DNA of 64,000 bases, taken from Aptenodytes patagonicus. Its lineage: Eukaryota; Chordata; Aves; Sphenisciformes; Spheniscidae. A program made the translations under genes and the position numbers. Shown piece by piece: positions 3,001-64,000 of this stretch; the stretch's first letter is position 1; each line of letters starts with the position of its first letter. The notes beneath the pieces are model-generated. The model was not told where the DNA came from. It saw nothing but the letters and a program-made list of their open reading frames with translations, and did not search any database. The DNA is taken from NCBI RefSeq assembly GCF_965638725.1, contig NC_134958.1:22103964-22167963 (forward strand), given 5' to 3'.

Positions 3001-5470
3001 CGGGGAGCACTGCCTGCACCCCCAGCCCCCCTCCTCACCGCCACCCTGCACCCCAGGGGTGCCCACACAGCGGCGGGAGCAGTGGGGCAGCCGCCGGGAT
3101 GCCTGGAGCTGGTTCCATCATCCAAACCTCAGAGCTTTCGCAGGATGCCATCGGAGGCGCGGGGGGCAGCAGGAGGATGCTCGAGCCCCCCCGGCCGGCC
3201 AAGGCAGGCCCCGAAATGCCTGCCTGTGGGCAGGGAGGGGCCCAGCCGCCCGCTGCCAGGCGGCGGAGGGAAAAGGCAGGAATGGTAATGGGAAGCAGGT
3301 TTTCCCAGCCGACGGGTTTGCCGTGCGGAGCCAGTCCTGGGAGTGCGATCCAGACATGGGGGTATGCGGGGGTGGGAGGGCCGGTGGAGCAAGGAGACCT
3401 TTGTGGGTGCCAAAGGACTGCAGGGAGCACAGGTCCACACTTGGGGAAACTGAGGCACAGCCTTCAGAGGGGGTGCACGCAGCCCACAGGGACACTGTCC
3501 TGCCCCCGTCCCCATGCCAGGACACCGGAGTGGAGGGTGAGCTCCCAGGGCACTGGGACATCTCCCGGCTCCAGTTGCACACCCTGCAAGCAGAGGCAGC
3601 TCTTCGCAGCGTTCAGCCTCCGTCGAGGGTGTGACCAGCCTGGCTTTGCGGCCCAAATCTGCAAGTGTTTATCAGGGTGGCTCCGAGAAGGATTATCTCC
3701 TTCGCTGGGGCTGCACGCACCCTCCCGACACTGCTATCGCCTCTCCCACCCTCCCAGATACTTGTCCCCTACCCCATGTCCAGACCCTTCAAAATCTGCC
3801 TCCGGCACATCCCAGGGACCGTGCTGCAATGGGGGATCCCAGGCAGGGCATCCCCCCACTGAGCCCGGTCTGGGGGAGCCGGGATGCCACAGCCGGGTGC
3901 CGGCACGGCCCTGGAGGCTGCTCGCGGTGCCGGAGTTTGGCTGCCCGCCCGGGGAACGGCAGTGGCAGGCTCAAACCCAGCGCCCGTTGCGCTGCCGGGG
4001 GAGAGCAGGCGGCAGTGGGGCTGGCGGGGGGGAAGGGACGCGCCGTCCTGCGCAGAATCTGGCCTCAACGTGGGGCCGAGGCAACCGTGGTCAGCCAGTG
4101 CACCGCCAGCGGGGCCGGGGATGAGGCCTTAATCCCTGCGGGGTTAGCACGGGGGTTAGCCACCCTATTCCCGTGGCTGCTGCTGCTGGAGGGGCTGGGG
4201 CGGGGATGGGGCCAGGGTGGGATGGGGCTGGGGTGGGGTGGGAAGGGGGTGGGATGGTGCCAAGGTAGGATGGGGCTGGGGTGGGATGGGGCTGGGTGGG
4301 ATGGGATGGGGCCAGGGTGGGATGGGGCCGGGGTGGGATGGGATGGGGCCAGGGTGGGATGGGGCCGGGGTGGGATGGGGCTGGGTGGGATGGGATGGGG
4401 CCAGGGTGGGATGGGGCCGGGGTGGGATGGGTTTGGGATGAGATGGGGCCAGGGTGGGATGGGGCCGGGGTGGGATGGGATGGGGCCAGGGTGGGATGGG
4501 GCTGGGATGGGGCTGGGGTGGGATGAGGCTGGGGTGGGATGAGGCTGGGTGGGATGGGATGGGGTCAGGGTGGGATGGGGCTGGGGTGGGATGGGTTTGG
4601 GATGGGATGGGGCCGGGGTGGGATGAGACCAAGGTAGGATGCAGCCAGGGTAGGATGGGGCTGGGGTGGGATGGGGTTGGGATGGGATGGGGCTGCTGTG
4701 GGATGGAGCCAGGGTGGGATAGGGCCGGGGTAGGATGGGGCTAGGATAGGATGGGAATGGCGTGGGTCTGTGCCAAGGTAGGATGCAGCCAGGGTAGGAT
4801 GGGGCTGGGGTAGGATGGGGCTAAGATAGGATGGGGCCGGGTGGGATGGGGTTGGGATGGGGCCAGAGTGGGATGGGGCCACGGTGAAGGGGACCACCCC
4901 GGCTGCGGGATGCAGCAGGAAACGCGTCCTGCCTGGACGGAGGCTGCGCGATGCCTCCGGGTGTATTTCGGCGTGCTTGTCCCCGCGGGCTAGGGCCGGG
5001 GAGGGCTCTGGGAGGACGGAGCGCAGCCCGTCGCATTCCCAGCGCCGCTGTTATTTTAACAATACCCCGCTGGCCTGCATGCCGGGGCTAATTTTAACCC
5101 TGGAGCCACGCCAAGCCGGCCCTAACTTTCCTTGCTGTGATTTATCCCAGCCGTTTCCCTTCGAAAACAAGGCCCCCGTGCCAGCCCCGCTGTCTCCCCA
5201 GGCAGCGGCACGCTGCCATGGGTCCTGCCCCACCGGGCAGGGCAAAGCGGGGCAGGATTTGCCCCTCGGCGGGTTATTCGGAGAGCGGGAGGGCGGCCGG
5301 TGCCGGGCCCCCCTGGGCGCTCAGCCCCCCGCCGCCCACAGCATGGGGATTTTCGGAAGCTGGCTGGAAGCCGGGGGATGCTCGAATGCAGAGACTTCCC
5401 CGGGATCCTGGAGCGGCTCCGTTTTCCACAGACATCTCTGGGAAGGAGGTGGGTGTTTTTTTCTACTGAC
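1..5470. other. Intergenic region downstream of SNX33, no gene recognised
   Basis: GC-rich DNA with many open frames on both strands. All look like composition-driven shadows: none shows a known domain, conserved motif or convincing exon borders. In the human order the next gene on this side is CSPG4, arranged tail-to-tail with SNX33; no CSPG4 coding sequence is visible, so this is probably the spacer between the two 3' ends. A TATA-like ATATAAAA at about 2576 has no recognisable gene behind it. The AT-richer stretch at about 1735-1790 could be a conserved non-coding element, but that cannot be judged from one sequence. Confidence 0.6.
4188..4885. repeat. G-rich minisatellite, about 16-bp unit
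   Basis: A tandem array of a unit close to GGTGGGATGGGGCTGG. It is interrupted by repeated 5-base GGGAT insertions and by CCAG/CCGG/CTGG variants of the last four bases. One strand is almost entirely G plus A/T, with runs of three or four G every few bases, so many G-quadruplexes are possible. Order decays toward the right end, where AGGTAGGATG variants appear. The array produces long low-complexity open frames on both strands that are not genes. Confidence 0.93.
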
Positions 5471-36145: not shown

Positions 36146-37635
36146 GACCCGCCACCTCCCCGCAGACCCCCGCTTCCCATCCTCCCGGGGCTGCCAGAGC
36201 CGCCTCCGCGCCCGCCAGGACTCGGCAGAGCCGTCGGGACGGCGGTGCCGGGGCGCGGAGGCGGCTGCCCGTCCTCGACTCTTAGCACTGCTATCGAACT
36301 GTGCCTTATTCAAACCAAACGGTGGCTGCCGCTCGCCGGGGAGGGGGGAGGACGGCGCGGGAAGAGGCGCTCGCTCCTCTCCGCCGTATTTCCGTTGGGG
36401 GGTTTGGTTGTTTGGGGAGGTGGTTTTTCTTCTCTTCGAGTTGTTTGGTTGGTTTTTTTTTGTTGTTGTTTTTTTTTGTCGGGACCACCTAAAATGTATC
36501 TAGAGAAGGGGCTTTGCAAAGCCCTAGGAAATGTATTTCCAGTCCTGCCCTGGCCTGGGGCTTAGGAAGAGGCACGTACTTCAGTCTTACCTGCCACTAC
36601 GTCTGTGTGTCTGTATGTATGTGTGTATATAATATACCCTCGCTGTGCCCAACCCCGGCTATTATATAGATACATATATACAAGCACCCGTTTTAGCAGC
36701 TCCTGTGGGTCCCCGCTGTCCTGCCGTCTCACCGCTGTGATCTCTGGAGCGGTGAATTTGGTCCTGGCTCTGTCTTGTCTTCCCCCCGCCTCTTTTTTCC
36801 CCCCTTTCCTGTCCCCCCTGCTCCTCGTGGGCAGCGCTGGGACCCGGTACCCGCTCCTGTGCCCATCCCGCGGGAGGCACGGGGATGCGCGGCGGTATCC
36901 CCCCCCCCCTTTCCTTGTCTCATCTTCCTCATCCTCGTCTCCTGCTGGGAGAGGGCAGCTCTGCTCCCGGGAGGAGGATCTGGAGGATTTTGGCCGCGGC
37001 AGGCGGGTTGGCCGAGGGGCTGAGGAGCTGCCCCTGCCCCTCGGGGCGCAGCCACGTGAGTCACTAGGTACGAGGTGATGGGGACGGATGGGGATCGACC
37101 GGCTCTCCGGGTTGCTCGGCTTTCCCAAGCCGGCAGTGGGAACCCGCCGGCCCAGCCCTTCCGTGAGTCACGGGTTGGAAAAGCGTTGAGCAAAAAAAAG
37201 AAAAAAAAAAAAAAAAAAAAAAAAAGCTAAAACCCTCGGGAGGCGGCGAGCTGCCCTCTGGGGCAGCAGCACCCACCGGGGACGGCTGCCCCAGCCCCTG
37301 CCACCACCCTGGCCACCCGCCCCTCCGCGCTGCCCGGCAGCAGCCGGGCCTCAGTAACTTTATACTGTAATAAGCTCTTTGAATGTGTATATTCTTATTT
37401 TTTTATAATCTGGGGGTGGGGGGTGGGGGTTGGTTTTTTGTTTTGGTTTTTGTTTGTGGTTTTTTTTTTTTTTTGTATTTAACATTAACTTGATCCAAGC
37501 CAGAGCCAGAAGTATTTGTAAATGTTCCTATTTTGCTCTCGTTCAGAGAAACATTTTTGTTGTTGTTACTTTTTGGGTTTGGTTTTGTTTTGATTTGTAT
37601 CGACATATAAATATACTACCAGTGAGCAGTCAGTC
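36146..37635 (+). other. PTPN9: Probable PTPN9 3'UTR
   Basis: T-rich and repeat-bearing DNA after the stop, with an A run at about 37193-37225 and a T run at about 37461-37474. No canonical AATAAA lies in the first 2 kb. The variant AATATA at 37611-37616, followed by T/G-rich sequence, is the best candidate signal. The true 3' end is uncertain. Confidence 0.45.
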
Positions 37636-41500: not shown

Positions 41501-42209
41501 CCGCAGCCGCTGCCCCGTCTGCAGCTCGTGTTTTATCGGCGGGGAGCGGGGAGGGCTCGCCCGCCCCCGCGGGGGCAGGGTTTGCCGCAGGGCCGGGGGG
41601 TCAGTCTCCCTCCCGCCCTCCACGCTGAGGCCTCTCCCTCAGCCCCCCGCTCCCCCTCCCTCCCCCCGCCGGTGGGCGGTCCGGCCGTGACGATCGGCGT
41701 CGCGGGGCCAATCCGCCCCGGGGGGAGTTCCCCTCCATTCAGGGCTCCTCGCCTGCGCGTTGAGGGTATGTAACAGCTGCTTTCCACCCCCCCTCCCCGC
41801 GCCACCACCACCGCCCCCCCCCCCCGCCCCCCGCCTCACGACAGACCGGGATTTGCTTCCCCGGGGGCGGGAGGAGGCCCGGCGCCGTCGCCGCCGTCGG
41901 GCTGAGGGAAGGAGCGACCCGCGCGCTCCAACGGCCGCCGGCGGGAAGCGCGCGGCGGGAAGCGCGCGACGCCGGGGGGGGGGGGGGGGAGTGGGGGGGG
42001 GGGGGGGGAGTGAGTGAGTGAGTGTGTGTGAGGAGGCGGGGGGGGGGGGGGAGCGGCCGCCGCGCCGGCCCCGCCCCCCGCCCCCATTGGCCGCGGGGCG
42101 GCGGGCACGCCCCCGCGGCGCGCGGGCCTCTCCCCCCCCCCCCCTCCCCGCTCAGTGCGTGCGTGCGTGTGTGTGAGTGTGTCTCCCCCCGCCCCCCCCC
42201 CCCCCCCCC

Positions 42210-42410
42210 CACGTGTAACCGACCCGCCCCACGTGGGGTGCTGCCATCCCGGAAGTGAAGGGGTCGGGGACAAAAGGCAGCGCCGCGCCCCCCGTCCGCC
42301 CCCCTCCGGGCCCCGCCGCCAACACCCCCCCCCCGCCGCCAACCGGCGGCGGGGGGGGGGTGTTGGCGGCGGGGCCCGGAGGGGGGCGGACGGGGGGCGG
42401 TGAGCACGTG
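42210..42410. promoter_or_regulatory. SIN3A: Three CACGTG E-boxes flanking the palindrome
   Basis: CACGTG occurs at 42210-42215, 42230-42235 (inside the 12-base palindrome CCCCACGTGGGG, 42227-42238) and 42405-42410. These are canonical MYC/MAX/MXD/USF sites. SIN3A is the corepressor recruited by MXD-MAX, so self-regulation is conceivable; this is inference. Confidence 0.6.
42286..42399. repeat. Perfect inverted repeat, 55-base arms, 4-base loop
   Basis: Left arm 42286-42340 and right arm 42345-42399 are exact reverse complements, separated by AACC. The arms contain a ten-base C run and its matching G run, GCCGCC blocks and CCCGGAGGGG-type sequence. No mismatch was found when the arms were compared base by base. 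It could form a cruciform or hairpin, or be an assembly fold-back artefact. Confidence 0.93.
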
Positions 42411-42889
42411 CGCGCGCGCGCCGTGAGGGGGAGGGGGCCGCGCGCGCGCGGGCCGCGGCCGATGTAAACATTCCACAAAAGGGCTCCCCAGAGAGGGGGC
42501 GGGGCCTCGCCGGTCGGAGGCGGGGCCAGTGCCGCCGCGTGGGCGGGGTCCCCGCCGTGACGGTCGCGCTGCCCGCTCGCCGGTTGGCTGGTGCTTTTCG
42601 TTCGCCGCCAATGGGGCGGCGGAGGAGGCGGGACGGGGGCGGGGCGCGCTGCTTATACGGACATTTTTCTTCGGCGGTCGCTCCCCCCCTCCCCTCTTCC
42701 CTCCCTTCCTCTCCACATCCCCTTCCTGGGGGTCGCGGCCAATAGGGGCGGGCGAGGTGGGCGGGACCAGGGCGGCGATTGGGCGCGAGGCTGACGGGCG
42801 TGCGGCGTACGCAATGGGCGTTCGGGGCTCCCCCCCTGCGCGGGGAGGGGCGGGATTTCCCGGGGAACAGAGAAGCGGGCAGCGCTCCG

Positions 42890-43137
42890 CCGCGGCGGCC
42901 GAGAGACGGTTACTCCATCTTACCCCCCCGCCCGCCGAGCCCCCCCCCCCCTCCCGCCCGGGACCCCGGCGCCGCCCCCGCCCGCCCCCCCCCTCCGGGA
43001 GGAGGGGCGCGGGGACCCCCCCACCTCGCCGCACCGGGGACAGCCCGCCCCCGCCGCCCGCCCGGGAGGGGCCCGCAGCGGCCCCGCCGCCCCCTGACCC
43101 TGAGGGAGACTCGGCCGCTGCCAGGGCCCGCTTCGAG
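42890..43137 (+). other. SIN3A: Probable SIN3A non-coding exon 1
   Basis: The end is defined by a strong donor, GAG followed by GTAAGGGG, at 43138. The 5' end is a guess from the CCAAT cluster and the CCATCTT (YY1-like, inverted) at about 42915. Splicing to the acceptor at 51181-51182 would give a leader joined 32 bases before the SIN3A ATG. Confidence 0.5.
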
Positions 43138-46100
43138 GTAAGGGGGAGGGGGGGGGGCGCGGGAGGGAAGGGGGGTCGCCAGGCCCGGTGCCGGCCCCCT
43201 CTGGCGATCCGTAGGGGGCGGGGCCTGGCGCCGGTGCCGCGCGCGCGCTGGCGGCGGGGGGGGCGGGAAGAGGGGGGGGGGGCGGCGGCGGCGGTGGGGG
43301 GGGCCGGTGCCCGCGGCGCGGCTCCCCGGGGAGCCCCGGCCCGCGCGGGCGATCGCGCGTCCTCCCGCCCCGCCCCGCCCCGCCGGGCGCGAGGGGGTGT
43401 CCCGGCCCCGGCATGGCGGGAGCGGCGGGCGGAGCGTGCGGCGGCCGCTGGGCGCGCTGCGAGGCGGGCGCCTCCCTCCGCCCCTCCTCCCGCCCTCCGC
43501 CCGGTGCCGCTCCCGGGCTGCGGCGGGACCGCCCCCCGCGAGCTCTCTCCCGCATTGCACGCCCCCGGTACCGGCCGCATTGCGCGCTGGGTCCTCCGCC
43601 GGGGCTTCCCCCCGCGGAGCTCCTCCCCGCGCCGCCCGGCCGACGGGGGGTCCCGAGAGTCGGCTGGAGCCCGGGGGGGGGGGGGGGGCCGCGGGGCTCC
43701 CCCGGCTCCGGTGTCCGTCCCCGCCCGCCCCGACTTTCCGGAGAAGTTGCCGCTAGGAAGCGTTTTGCCGCTCAGTAGCCGCCCGGCGGGGTCCTGCTCC
43801 GCCGCCCCTTGTACCTCTCCACCGGCTCGGACCCCGTCCAGCGCCTCCCGCCTGGCACGGGACCGATCCCCGCCGCCCGTGCCTCCTCCGAAAACGGCAG
43901 CCGGGGTCGCCGAGAGTTCCCCCGTCGCTTCTCGGAGCCCCTGTCGTTGCAGTTTTTCGGCTCGATACCGCAGCGATCCGTAAGGACCCGCTGGAGCGAT
44001 GTACGGATACATGGAAACCGGAGAGCTCCTCTTGCACGCATTAATTTTTAAGCGTTCTTAATAGCAAGCTGGCATCCTTTTTTACGCGTCCGCTCCGCGC
44101 GGTGTCGTGCCTTGAACTTGTCGGAGACTTGCACTTGATATTTCAGCCCGGGTTTTTAATTCTTGGGACGGCTGTACCTCCAGAGAAACTACGTTAGGTT
44201 GTTTCCTGGGATTGCAGGAGGCCGGCCGTGGGCTTCAGATAGCTTTAAAAATACGAGCGTGCTTGGTGTCTACTTAGCTAAATACTGTCTTTTCTGTGTT
44301 TTCCTGGCCCAGGTTTAGGATGAGTTTCTGTTGTCGTTATTTGTGCAAATAACACGTGTATTCAGTGCACTGATGGAAAGGGTACGTCCCTGAAAAAATG
44401 CATTTATTTGCACCACTAAAACGATACGAAACTAAAAAATAATTTGTTTAAAATAGCGCTGGAACTAGTGATCGAAGGCGTCTCGAGCTGTGCGTGGATT
44501 TTTAAGCTCCCGCGCTGTCCAGAGGAATCAAAACCTGGTTCGTGCGCTGAAGTGTAGCTTAAGGATGACCTAACGCCTTACGTTTCTTTTCTAACTCGTT
44601 GCTTTTATATTCATCGGTCGTGCTAAAAGGTGTGGGGTCAGTAAACAAGTGGGAAATGCCCGACTTAATTTCAGTATGGCTCTACCTGCACTTCATCTTC
44701 CGGTCCGAACTTGTAATTTTTTTTTTAAATACACTTTCAAGGAGGTACACGTTGTTCTAAAACGTTGTGCCGTTAATACTGTATGATAAAATGGCACCTT
44801 ATGTTAATGTACTAATTTTAAAGCACATGTAAGCTTCCTTCATCACATAAAAGTGCCCTGGCAGCCTAGCGTCAGCCCGTGCTGGATCTCTGGGAACAGA
44901 AAACCACTTTTTAGGGTCTTTTCTTCCCTGCCCGGCTGAAGGTAGCAGTTTTTCAGGCCGGTGCGCTCTTTGCAAAAGGAAGCCACGCTTTCTCACCCCG
45001 AAGTATCTCGTCCTCGCCCCTCCCACTCACCGCTTCTGGTTAAGGTACATGGTCTCGGCGTCAACTTGTTTGAAAAGCTTCAACGTGGTAGTTCACCCAA
45101 TAAAACGGCAGTAACTTGCTAAAGTTTGGGGAAACTCCGGGTGACTTCAACTGCTTTTGGAAGCAGGGTGGGAAGGGAGATGTTCTCCCGCCCCCGCCCC
45201 AGCCCGGATTGCCGGGGGAACTCTCCGCGCAGGCTCCTGGCACGTGTGGGTCTTGGAGCCGGGAGCATCGCGTTGGAATTGGCAGGCGGATCATTTACGT
45301 TTCCAGGATTTATGAATCGTTTTCTGTCCAGATTGCTGTTCTGGTCTTCTCCAGCGTTGGAAAGCTTTTATGGCTGTTAAAGCTGGAACAGAAAAGAGAG
45401 TCCCGCAATAGCTGTCATTTCAGCCTGTTAGGCGGGTTGCGCGCTTTTGGGGACGTGCTGCTTTTTTCCAGCTCCTGTGGGGTCTTGTCTCTTATTAAAA
45501 AAAAAAAAAGAATAAATAAAAATATTCTGATAATTCCCTCTGCGCGTGGGGAAAGTGTACTCAGGAAACTGGGCAAAACGATGCTAACCTCTGTATTGAG
45601 TGTAAAGCTCGATTTGGATCGTCTCTTTGCGGTGGAGTTTAATGTCCAGGCCGTTTGCCGCTTTGGCAAAGCGCGGATCAGTGCCGTACCAACTTGTTAC
45701 CCGTCTGGACAGAGGCGAGCGGGGTTTACTCGTGTCCCGCCTGCCTCGTGGTGGGTTCTGGCATGTAACCCGCAGGCTGTCACCGGGTCACCTTGCAGAA
45801 AACTCTCCTAACTGCACTGAAAGCTTCGCGTAATGCTTTTCCAGCACCTTTTTCTTTCGGAGACTTCTCATTTCGTTTTGGAATGACTCTCCGGTCACGG
45901 ATGTGCCTCTCTGCACAGCACCCCTCTGCAGCGGGGCCGGGGGCTTATTCCCATGTTACAGGCGAGGGATCCGGGCTGTGTGGCACCACGCAAAAAATAT
46001 ACCAGCGATTGCTGAACAAGCTGGGTCATGTTCTGGAAGTCGTGCGGCTGGGTTAGTGCACTGACAGCAGCAGCGCTGCCGGAACCTGAGCCGGCTGCTT

Positions 46101-51214: not shown

Positions 51215-51218
<4 letters not shown>
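51204..51218 (+). promoter_or_regulatory. SIN3A: Four-codon uORF overlapping the SIN3A start codon
   Basis: ATG AGT TCA GAA TGA starts 11 bases before the SIN3A ATG. Its TGA (51216-51218) overlaps that ATG (51215-51217). It is in the same exon as the start, so every transcript using this exon carries it. The arrangement resembles stop-restart overlaps. Confidence 0.7.

Positions 51219-64000
<12,782 letters not shown>

Follow-up and report, generated by a model that had tools for sequence, protein, structure and literature searches.

In rad27-deletion yeast, a nascent strand has been reported to fold on a 15-bp palindrome, copy 55 bp in total and rejoin, leaving a 66-bp insertion (PMC5677150). 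Copies made by template switching in apes are generally shorter, their median length being 12 bases and the longest reaching 128, and the events described there lie in more AT-rich surroundings (PMC7954356). Among instantaneous compensatory changes in rRNA hairpins, loops of four bases are over-represented (56.0% versus 42.1%), and the enriched loop motifs named are GNRA and CTTG (PMC8794818). The arms of eukaryotic inverted repeats are usually AT-rich, and the longest perfect human arm with a spacer of at most 8 is given as 140 (PMC13155455). According to a review, the human genome contains ~180,000 near-perfect, spacer-free palindromes of more than 40 bp (PMC7999016), and long palindromes as such are therefore not unknown in vertebrates.

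The 64-kb window studied here, meaning the whole stretch of Aptenodytes patagonicus DNA that was analysed (C10:22103964-22167963 in the assembly), contains a palindrome of 114 bp in total (Table 1). The initial annotation had described it as having 55-bp arms and an AACC loop at 42286..42399, and both the coordinates and the pairing of the arms (55/55 bases) proved exact; the matched C10 and G10 runs that it had noted in the arms are likewise present, at 42325-42334 and 42351-42360. Perfect pairing ends at the flanking G 42285 and G 42400, which are unpaired, and from there the palindrome exits into different unique DNA on either side. A 301-base query identified a single place in the assembly, besides its own reverse complement and two weak matches on contigs C29 and C1 (77% and 76%). 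Both weak matches are different GC-rich stretches that likewise carry runs of G or C, and a scan of them gave no perfect inverted repeat at the thresholds used here (arms of 12 bases or more, loop of 30 or less). As a check for vector or contaminant sequence, exact left-arm words of 27 and 32 bases were searched for in viral and genome contig collections without vertebrates and were absent from them, a result that says little, since by their own descriptions these collections contain no vertebrates.

Table 1. Positions within the window of the palindrome, its component parts and the neighbouring motifs and coding sequence.
Feature	Position	Strand	Remark
Left arm, 55 bp	42286..42340	+	C-rich on the + strand; putatively the original DNA (modest basis for the polarity)
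Loop AACC	42341..42344	+	Between the two arms
Right arm, 55 bp	42345..42399	+	Exact reverse complement of the left arm; putatively the copy
C10 run	42325..42334	+	Exact match to the G10 run at 42351-42360
GCCGCCAAC, copy 1 of direct repeat	42315..42323	+	Within the left arm
GCCGCCAAC, copy 2	42335..42343	+	Crosses from the left arm into the loop
GGCGG	42345..42349	+	Entry point of the copied arm
GGCGG	42396..42400	+	Exit point, with its last base just beyond the perfect palindrome; proposed site of realignment
SIN3A residues 1-67 match (coding start)	51215..51415	+	89.6% match to the human SIN3A query
CACGTG	42210..42215, more copies at 42230 and 42405	.	Outside the arms
CCGGAAGT, ETS-like motif	42249..42256	+	Outside the arms

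The scan for inverted repeats with perfect arms of at least 12 bases and loops of at most 30 returned 16 rows for the 64-kb window, all of them nested inside the palindrome. Two samples of the assembly gave only short arms. The first, of 206,169 bases (20 stretches of 10 kb along contig C10 together with loci L003 and L004; 202 bases N), contained 2 inverted repeats, each with 12-base arms. The second, of 52,068 bases with GC between 0.43 and 0.64 (four stretches of contig C29 and four loci with GC-box-like repeats, with L032, L034 and L036-L039 omitted as overlapping), gave 9 rows, all at one site in L029 and with arms of at most 13 bases. No arm longer than 13 was thus seen in 258,237 sampled bases, which represent ~0.02% of the 1,352,360,349-base assembly and so bound the rate of palindromes only loosely. 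The earlier description of the palindrome as rare is upheld for a perfect, G/C-rich palindrome but not for long palindromes as such, given the ~180,000 human examples (PMC7999016); it is the perfection and the G/C-richness that are unusual. Elsewhere in the window, at 37193-37480, A-rich and T-rich runs (A25 and T15) form an imperfect inverted repeat whose arms are 206 bp apart.

When set beside the described systems, the palindrome shares with the yeast event a small pre-existing hairpin as primer, ~50-55 bases copied, a return to the template and tens of bases inserted, although that event was recorded in a mutant with a known parent sequence, whereas the penguin pre-event sequence is a reconstruction (PMC5677150). 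Like the great-ape switches of the four-point model, it is a perfect inverted copy of its neighbour across a short spacer, one event would account for it, and its length stays under 128; unlike them, it is far above the median of 12, very GC-rich and available here without an ancestor sequence for comparison (PMC7954356). Being long and GC-rich, in contrast to the AT-rich ape events and eukaryotic arms, it departs from the typical switch pattern (PMC7954356, PMC13155455), and its AACC loop is not among the loop motifs (GNRA, CTTG) enriched in rRNA hairpins (PMC8794818). Human palindromic AT-rich repeats similarly have perfect or near-perfect arms and are capable of forming cruciforms, but they span several hundred bases and are >90% AT, whereas the penguin palindrome spans 114 bases and is G/C-rich (PMC7999016). 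In fold-back and inverted-chimera artefacts, too, a short loop or an inverted repeat links a sequence to its inverted copy; these artefacts, however, are features of single reads, whereas here both junctions are found in an assembled consensus with unique DNA on either side (PMC12870357, PMC10908179).

The palindrome lies in a CpG island, where the 1-kb bins of 42001-44000 have a GC content of 0.789 and 0.812, ~8.8 kb upstream of the SIN3A start codon. SIN3A is located on the + strand, with 9 matches to the N-terminal part of the human protein and coding exons from 51215. Further upstream in the window are a snurportin at ~12.1 kb, PTP-domain pieces at ~34.2-36.1 kb and, on the - strand within 8.4-10.2 kb, a sorting-nexin protein with SH3, PX and WASP-binding domains; the last two fit PTPN9 and SNX33, respectively, in a gene order that matches the one in man. 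Downstream of the palindrome, a donor-like GAG/GTAAGG would place the end of a possible first exon at 43137. The initial annotation had placed the palindrome in a SIN3A promoter island, of which SIN3A and the CpG island are borne out, while the island together with this donor-like site would make the region a putative promoter. Another donor-like site, G/GTGAGC (42399-42405, with GTGAGC from 42400), is situated directly where the right arm stops, and an alternative first exon may end there. The CACGTG E-boxes (42210, 42230 and 42405) and the ETS-like motif CCGGAAGT (42249) are present around the palindrome as originally reported. A total of 13 runs of at least 10 G or C start in 41.4-43.7 kb, the C10 and G10 of the palindrome included. 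The same island harbors an exact 14-bp tandem duplication of CGGCGGGAAGCGCG at 41939-41968 (2.1 copies, 100%), and at 41974-42012 there is an exact 19-bp tandem unit (G16 followed by AGT; 2.1 copies), after which come GTGA repeats; together with a C19 run at 42192, this second tandem should make the stretch hard to sequence. At 4001-5000, the GC skew of the 1-kb bin is +0.56, a value well apart from those of the remaining window, and no chicken-type CR1 tails were found anywhere in the window.

The arms are exact reverse complements to an extent beyond chance, as would be expected from a template switch, and two further features bear on how the copy was made. The second copy of GCCGCCAAC runs from the left arm into the loop, so that the loop is continuous with the repeat of the left arm and not with that of the right arm. 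This word occurs at none of the 5172 island positions outside the palindrome on either strand, and none of the 21 other GCCGCC in the island is followed by AAC. Simulated recurrence of a 6+3 word in the arm was, however, only ~3.7 times more common for contiguous DNA (799/20000) than for an unrelated loop (216/20000), and the support that loop continuity lends to copying of the left arm is therefore modest. In addition, GGCGG is common to the entry and exit points of the copied arm, and sharing of at least 5 bases has a chance probability of P = 0.043 under random placements. If the polarity were reversed, with the left arm as the copy, the shared microhomology would be 4 bases, for which the null probability of at least 4 is P = 0.094. 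The right arm is less likely to be the original, both because the microhomology is then 4 rather than 5 and because the loop lacks continuity with the repeat of the right arm. The asymmetry of the loop and the 5-base microhomology thus modestly support a fold-back switch. Deletion of the 51 bp between the GGCGG copies yields left arm - AACC - GGCGG - TGAGCACGTG, a proposed precursor that folds into a 5-bp hairpin, CCGCC/AACC/GGCGG (-6.3 kcal/mol, z -1.38), although 18 of 200 shuffles of it fold equally well or better. A search for a palindrome-free allele found its junction word, GCCGCCAACCGGCGGTGAG, to be absent from the assembly, as is expected if the assembly carries only one haplotype, and this provides the precursor with no support.

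On balance, we consider it probable, with only moderate assurance, that a single short-range fold-back template switch gave rise to the palindrome in the germ line of this lineage. Before the event, the locus would have read as the precursor given above, with its small hairpin in place. Replication may then have stalled in the island, rich as it is in G/C runs, and the nascent 3' end, CCGCC-AACC-GGCGG, would have snapped back on its own hairpin. The folded strand would have copied ~50 further bases of the left arm, assuming the direction favoured above, before realigning on the original template via the second GGCGG and resuming synthesis into TGAGCACGTG, for a net insertion of 51 bp, all of this presumably in the animal itself. 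Because the palindrome joins different unique DNA at each end, its formation requires a second switch, or else a mis-join, in addition to the first switch, and a simple one-step fold-back read is insufficient. Under this model, relatives should carry the left arm with GCCGCCAACC, and GGCGGTGAGCACGTG should come immediately after it; a read containing GCCGCCAACCGGCGGTGAGCACGTG would be one that lacks the inserted copy, which would mean that the palindrome is either unreal or heterozygous. The initial annotation had offered a choice between a cruciform-prone element and a fold-back artefact. A fold-back product is indeed supported by the perfect arms and the 4-base loop and, to a modest degree, by the loop continuity and the exit microhomology, but the data demonstrated neither a promoter function nor an artefactual origin. 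A natural template-switch mutation, which was not among the options named, is the best explanation, and a regulatory role is unnecessary to explain the palindrome. It is best read as a known kind of mutation that is longer and more GC-rich than typical.

A coincidental inverted repeat might be thought to be favoured by low-complexity G/C sequence, given the GC content of the two 1-kb bins from 42001 to 44000 and the long runs. However, the longest arms in islands simulated with Markov models of orders 1, 3 and 5 (trained on the island minus the palindrome; 120 each) were 13, 15 and 17 bases, respectively, with 0/360 above 17, and the longest perfect arm in the real island outside the palindrome is 11. 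Gumbel extrapolation to a 55-bp arm gives 1.5e-21, 1.1e-18 and 5.6e-17 for the three orders, figures that are to be read as orders of magnitude at best. With simulated islands never exceeding 17-base arms, a chance origin is untenable and its probability negligible. The alternative that deserves the most serious attention is that the second arm was made in vitro, by snap-back of a polymerase or during end repair, or was introduced by assembly or polishing software where coverage of GC-rich sequence was poor, and is not in the animal. We regard this as rather unlikely, with points to be weighed on both sides. Homopolymer runs are mutable, and the exactly equal C10 and G10 would suit a copy made in vitro or very recently. 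The site is also dense in homopolymers, with the 13 G/C runs counted above, and earlier bird assemblies have lost sequence at GC-rich promoters and first exons (PMC9516821). Inverted chimeric reads are known to arise at inverted repeats during library preparation (PMC10908179), and fold-backs have been reported to make up ~0.55-0.6% of nanopore genomic reads and to recur at the same places, while another study cited in the same paper gives 1-4%, and at times 20-30% in tumour samples (PMC12870357). Such an artefact would nevertheless have to switch into the copied arm and out of it again, with different unique DNA at the two junctions, and then prevail in the consensus. Furthermore, virtually no fold-back reads were reported in HiFi data, albeit from three PacBio samples only (PMC12870357), a point that would apply if the present assembly was built from such data, and no second palindrome of this kind was encountered in the 64-kb window or in the sampled 0.02% of the assembly.

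That the palindrome is a cruciform or hairpin element under selection for control of SIN3A transcription, or a structured RNA in the 5' leader, appears very unlikely, although it does have properties that would suit such a role. It sits among E-boxes and an ETS-like motif within the CpG island, it has several G runs per strand, and its fold is very stable both as DNA (-96.5 kcal/mol against a shuffle mean of -44.6; z -18) and as RNA (z -10.6 for 42186-42499), so that an effect of so extremely stable a hairpin is possible. The E-box and ETS-like motifs, however, lie outside the arms, and motifs of this type are common in CpG-island promoters. Perfect arms without compensatory change would also fit a recent copy better than long selection. 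The strict G-quadruplex pattern with loops of 1-7 had 0 matches on both strands of the palindrome, Rfam returned 0 matches at the gathering threshold for the whole window, and SIN3A was absent among the matches listed for literature on promoter palindromes, cruciforms and hairpins. Marginally less probable still is a combined scenario in which one switch built a GC-rich, cruciform-forming element with matched C10/G10 runs in the promoter island of SIN3A, a co-repressor gene, and in which this element today affects transcription of the gene or has turned the locus into a polymorphic fragile site of this species.

The palindrome is a sequence feature far beyond chance, and one fold-back copying event, of a type already described, is its best reading. 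Should it turn out to be an artefact, it would be a compact example for testing consensus errors in promoters of high GC content. If it is real, it would represent a clean, unusually long and GC-rich fold-back template switch at a CpG-island promoter, at a type of site that suffered sequence loss in earlier bird assemblies, with a pre-event sequence that can be predicted and checked in relatives.
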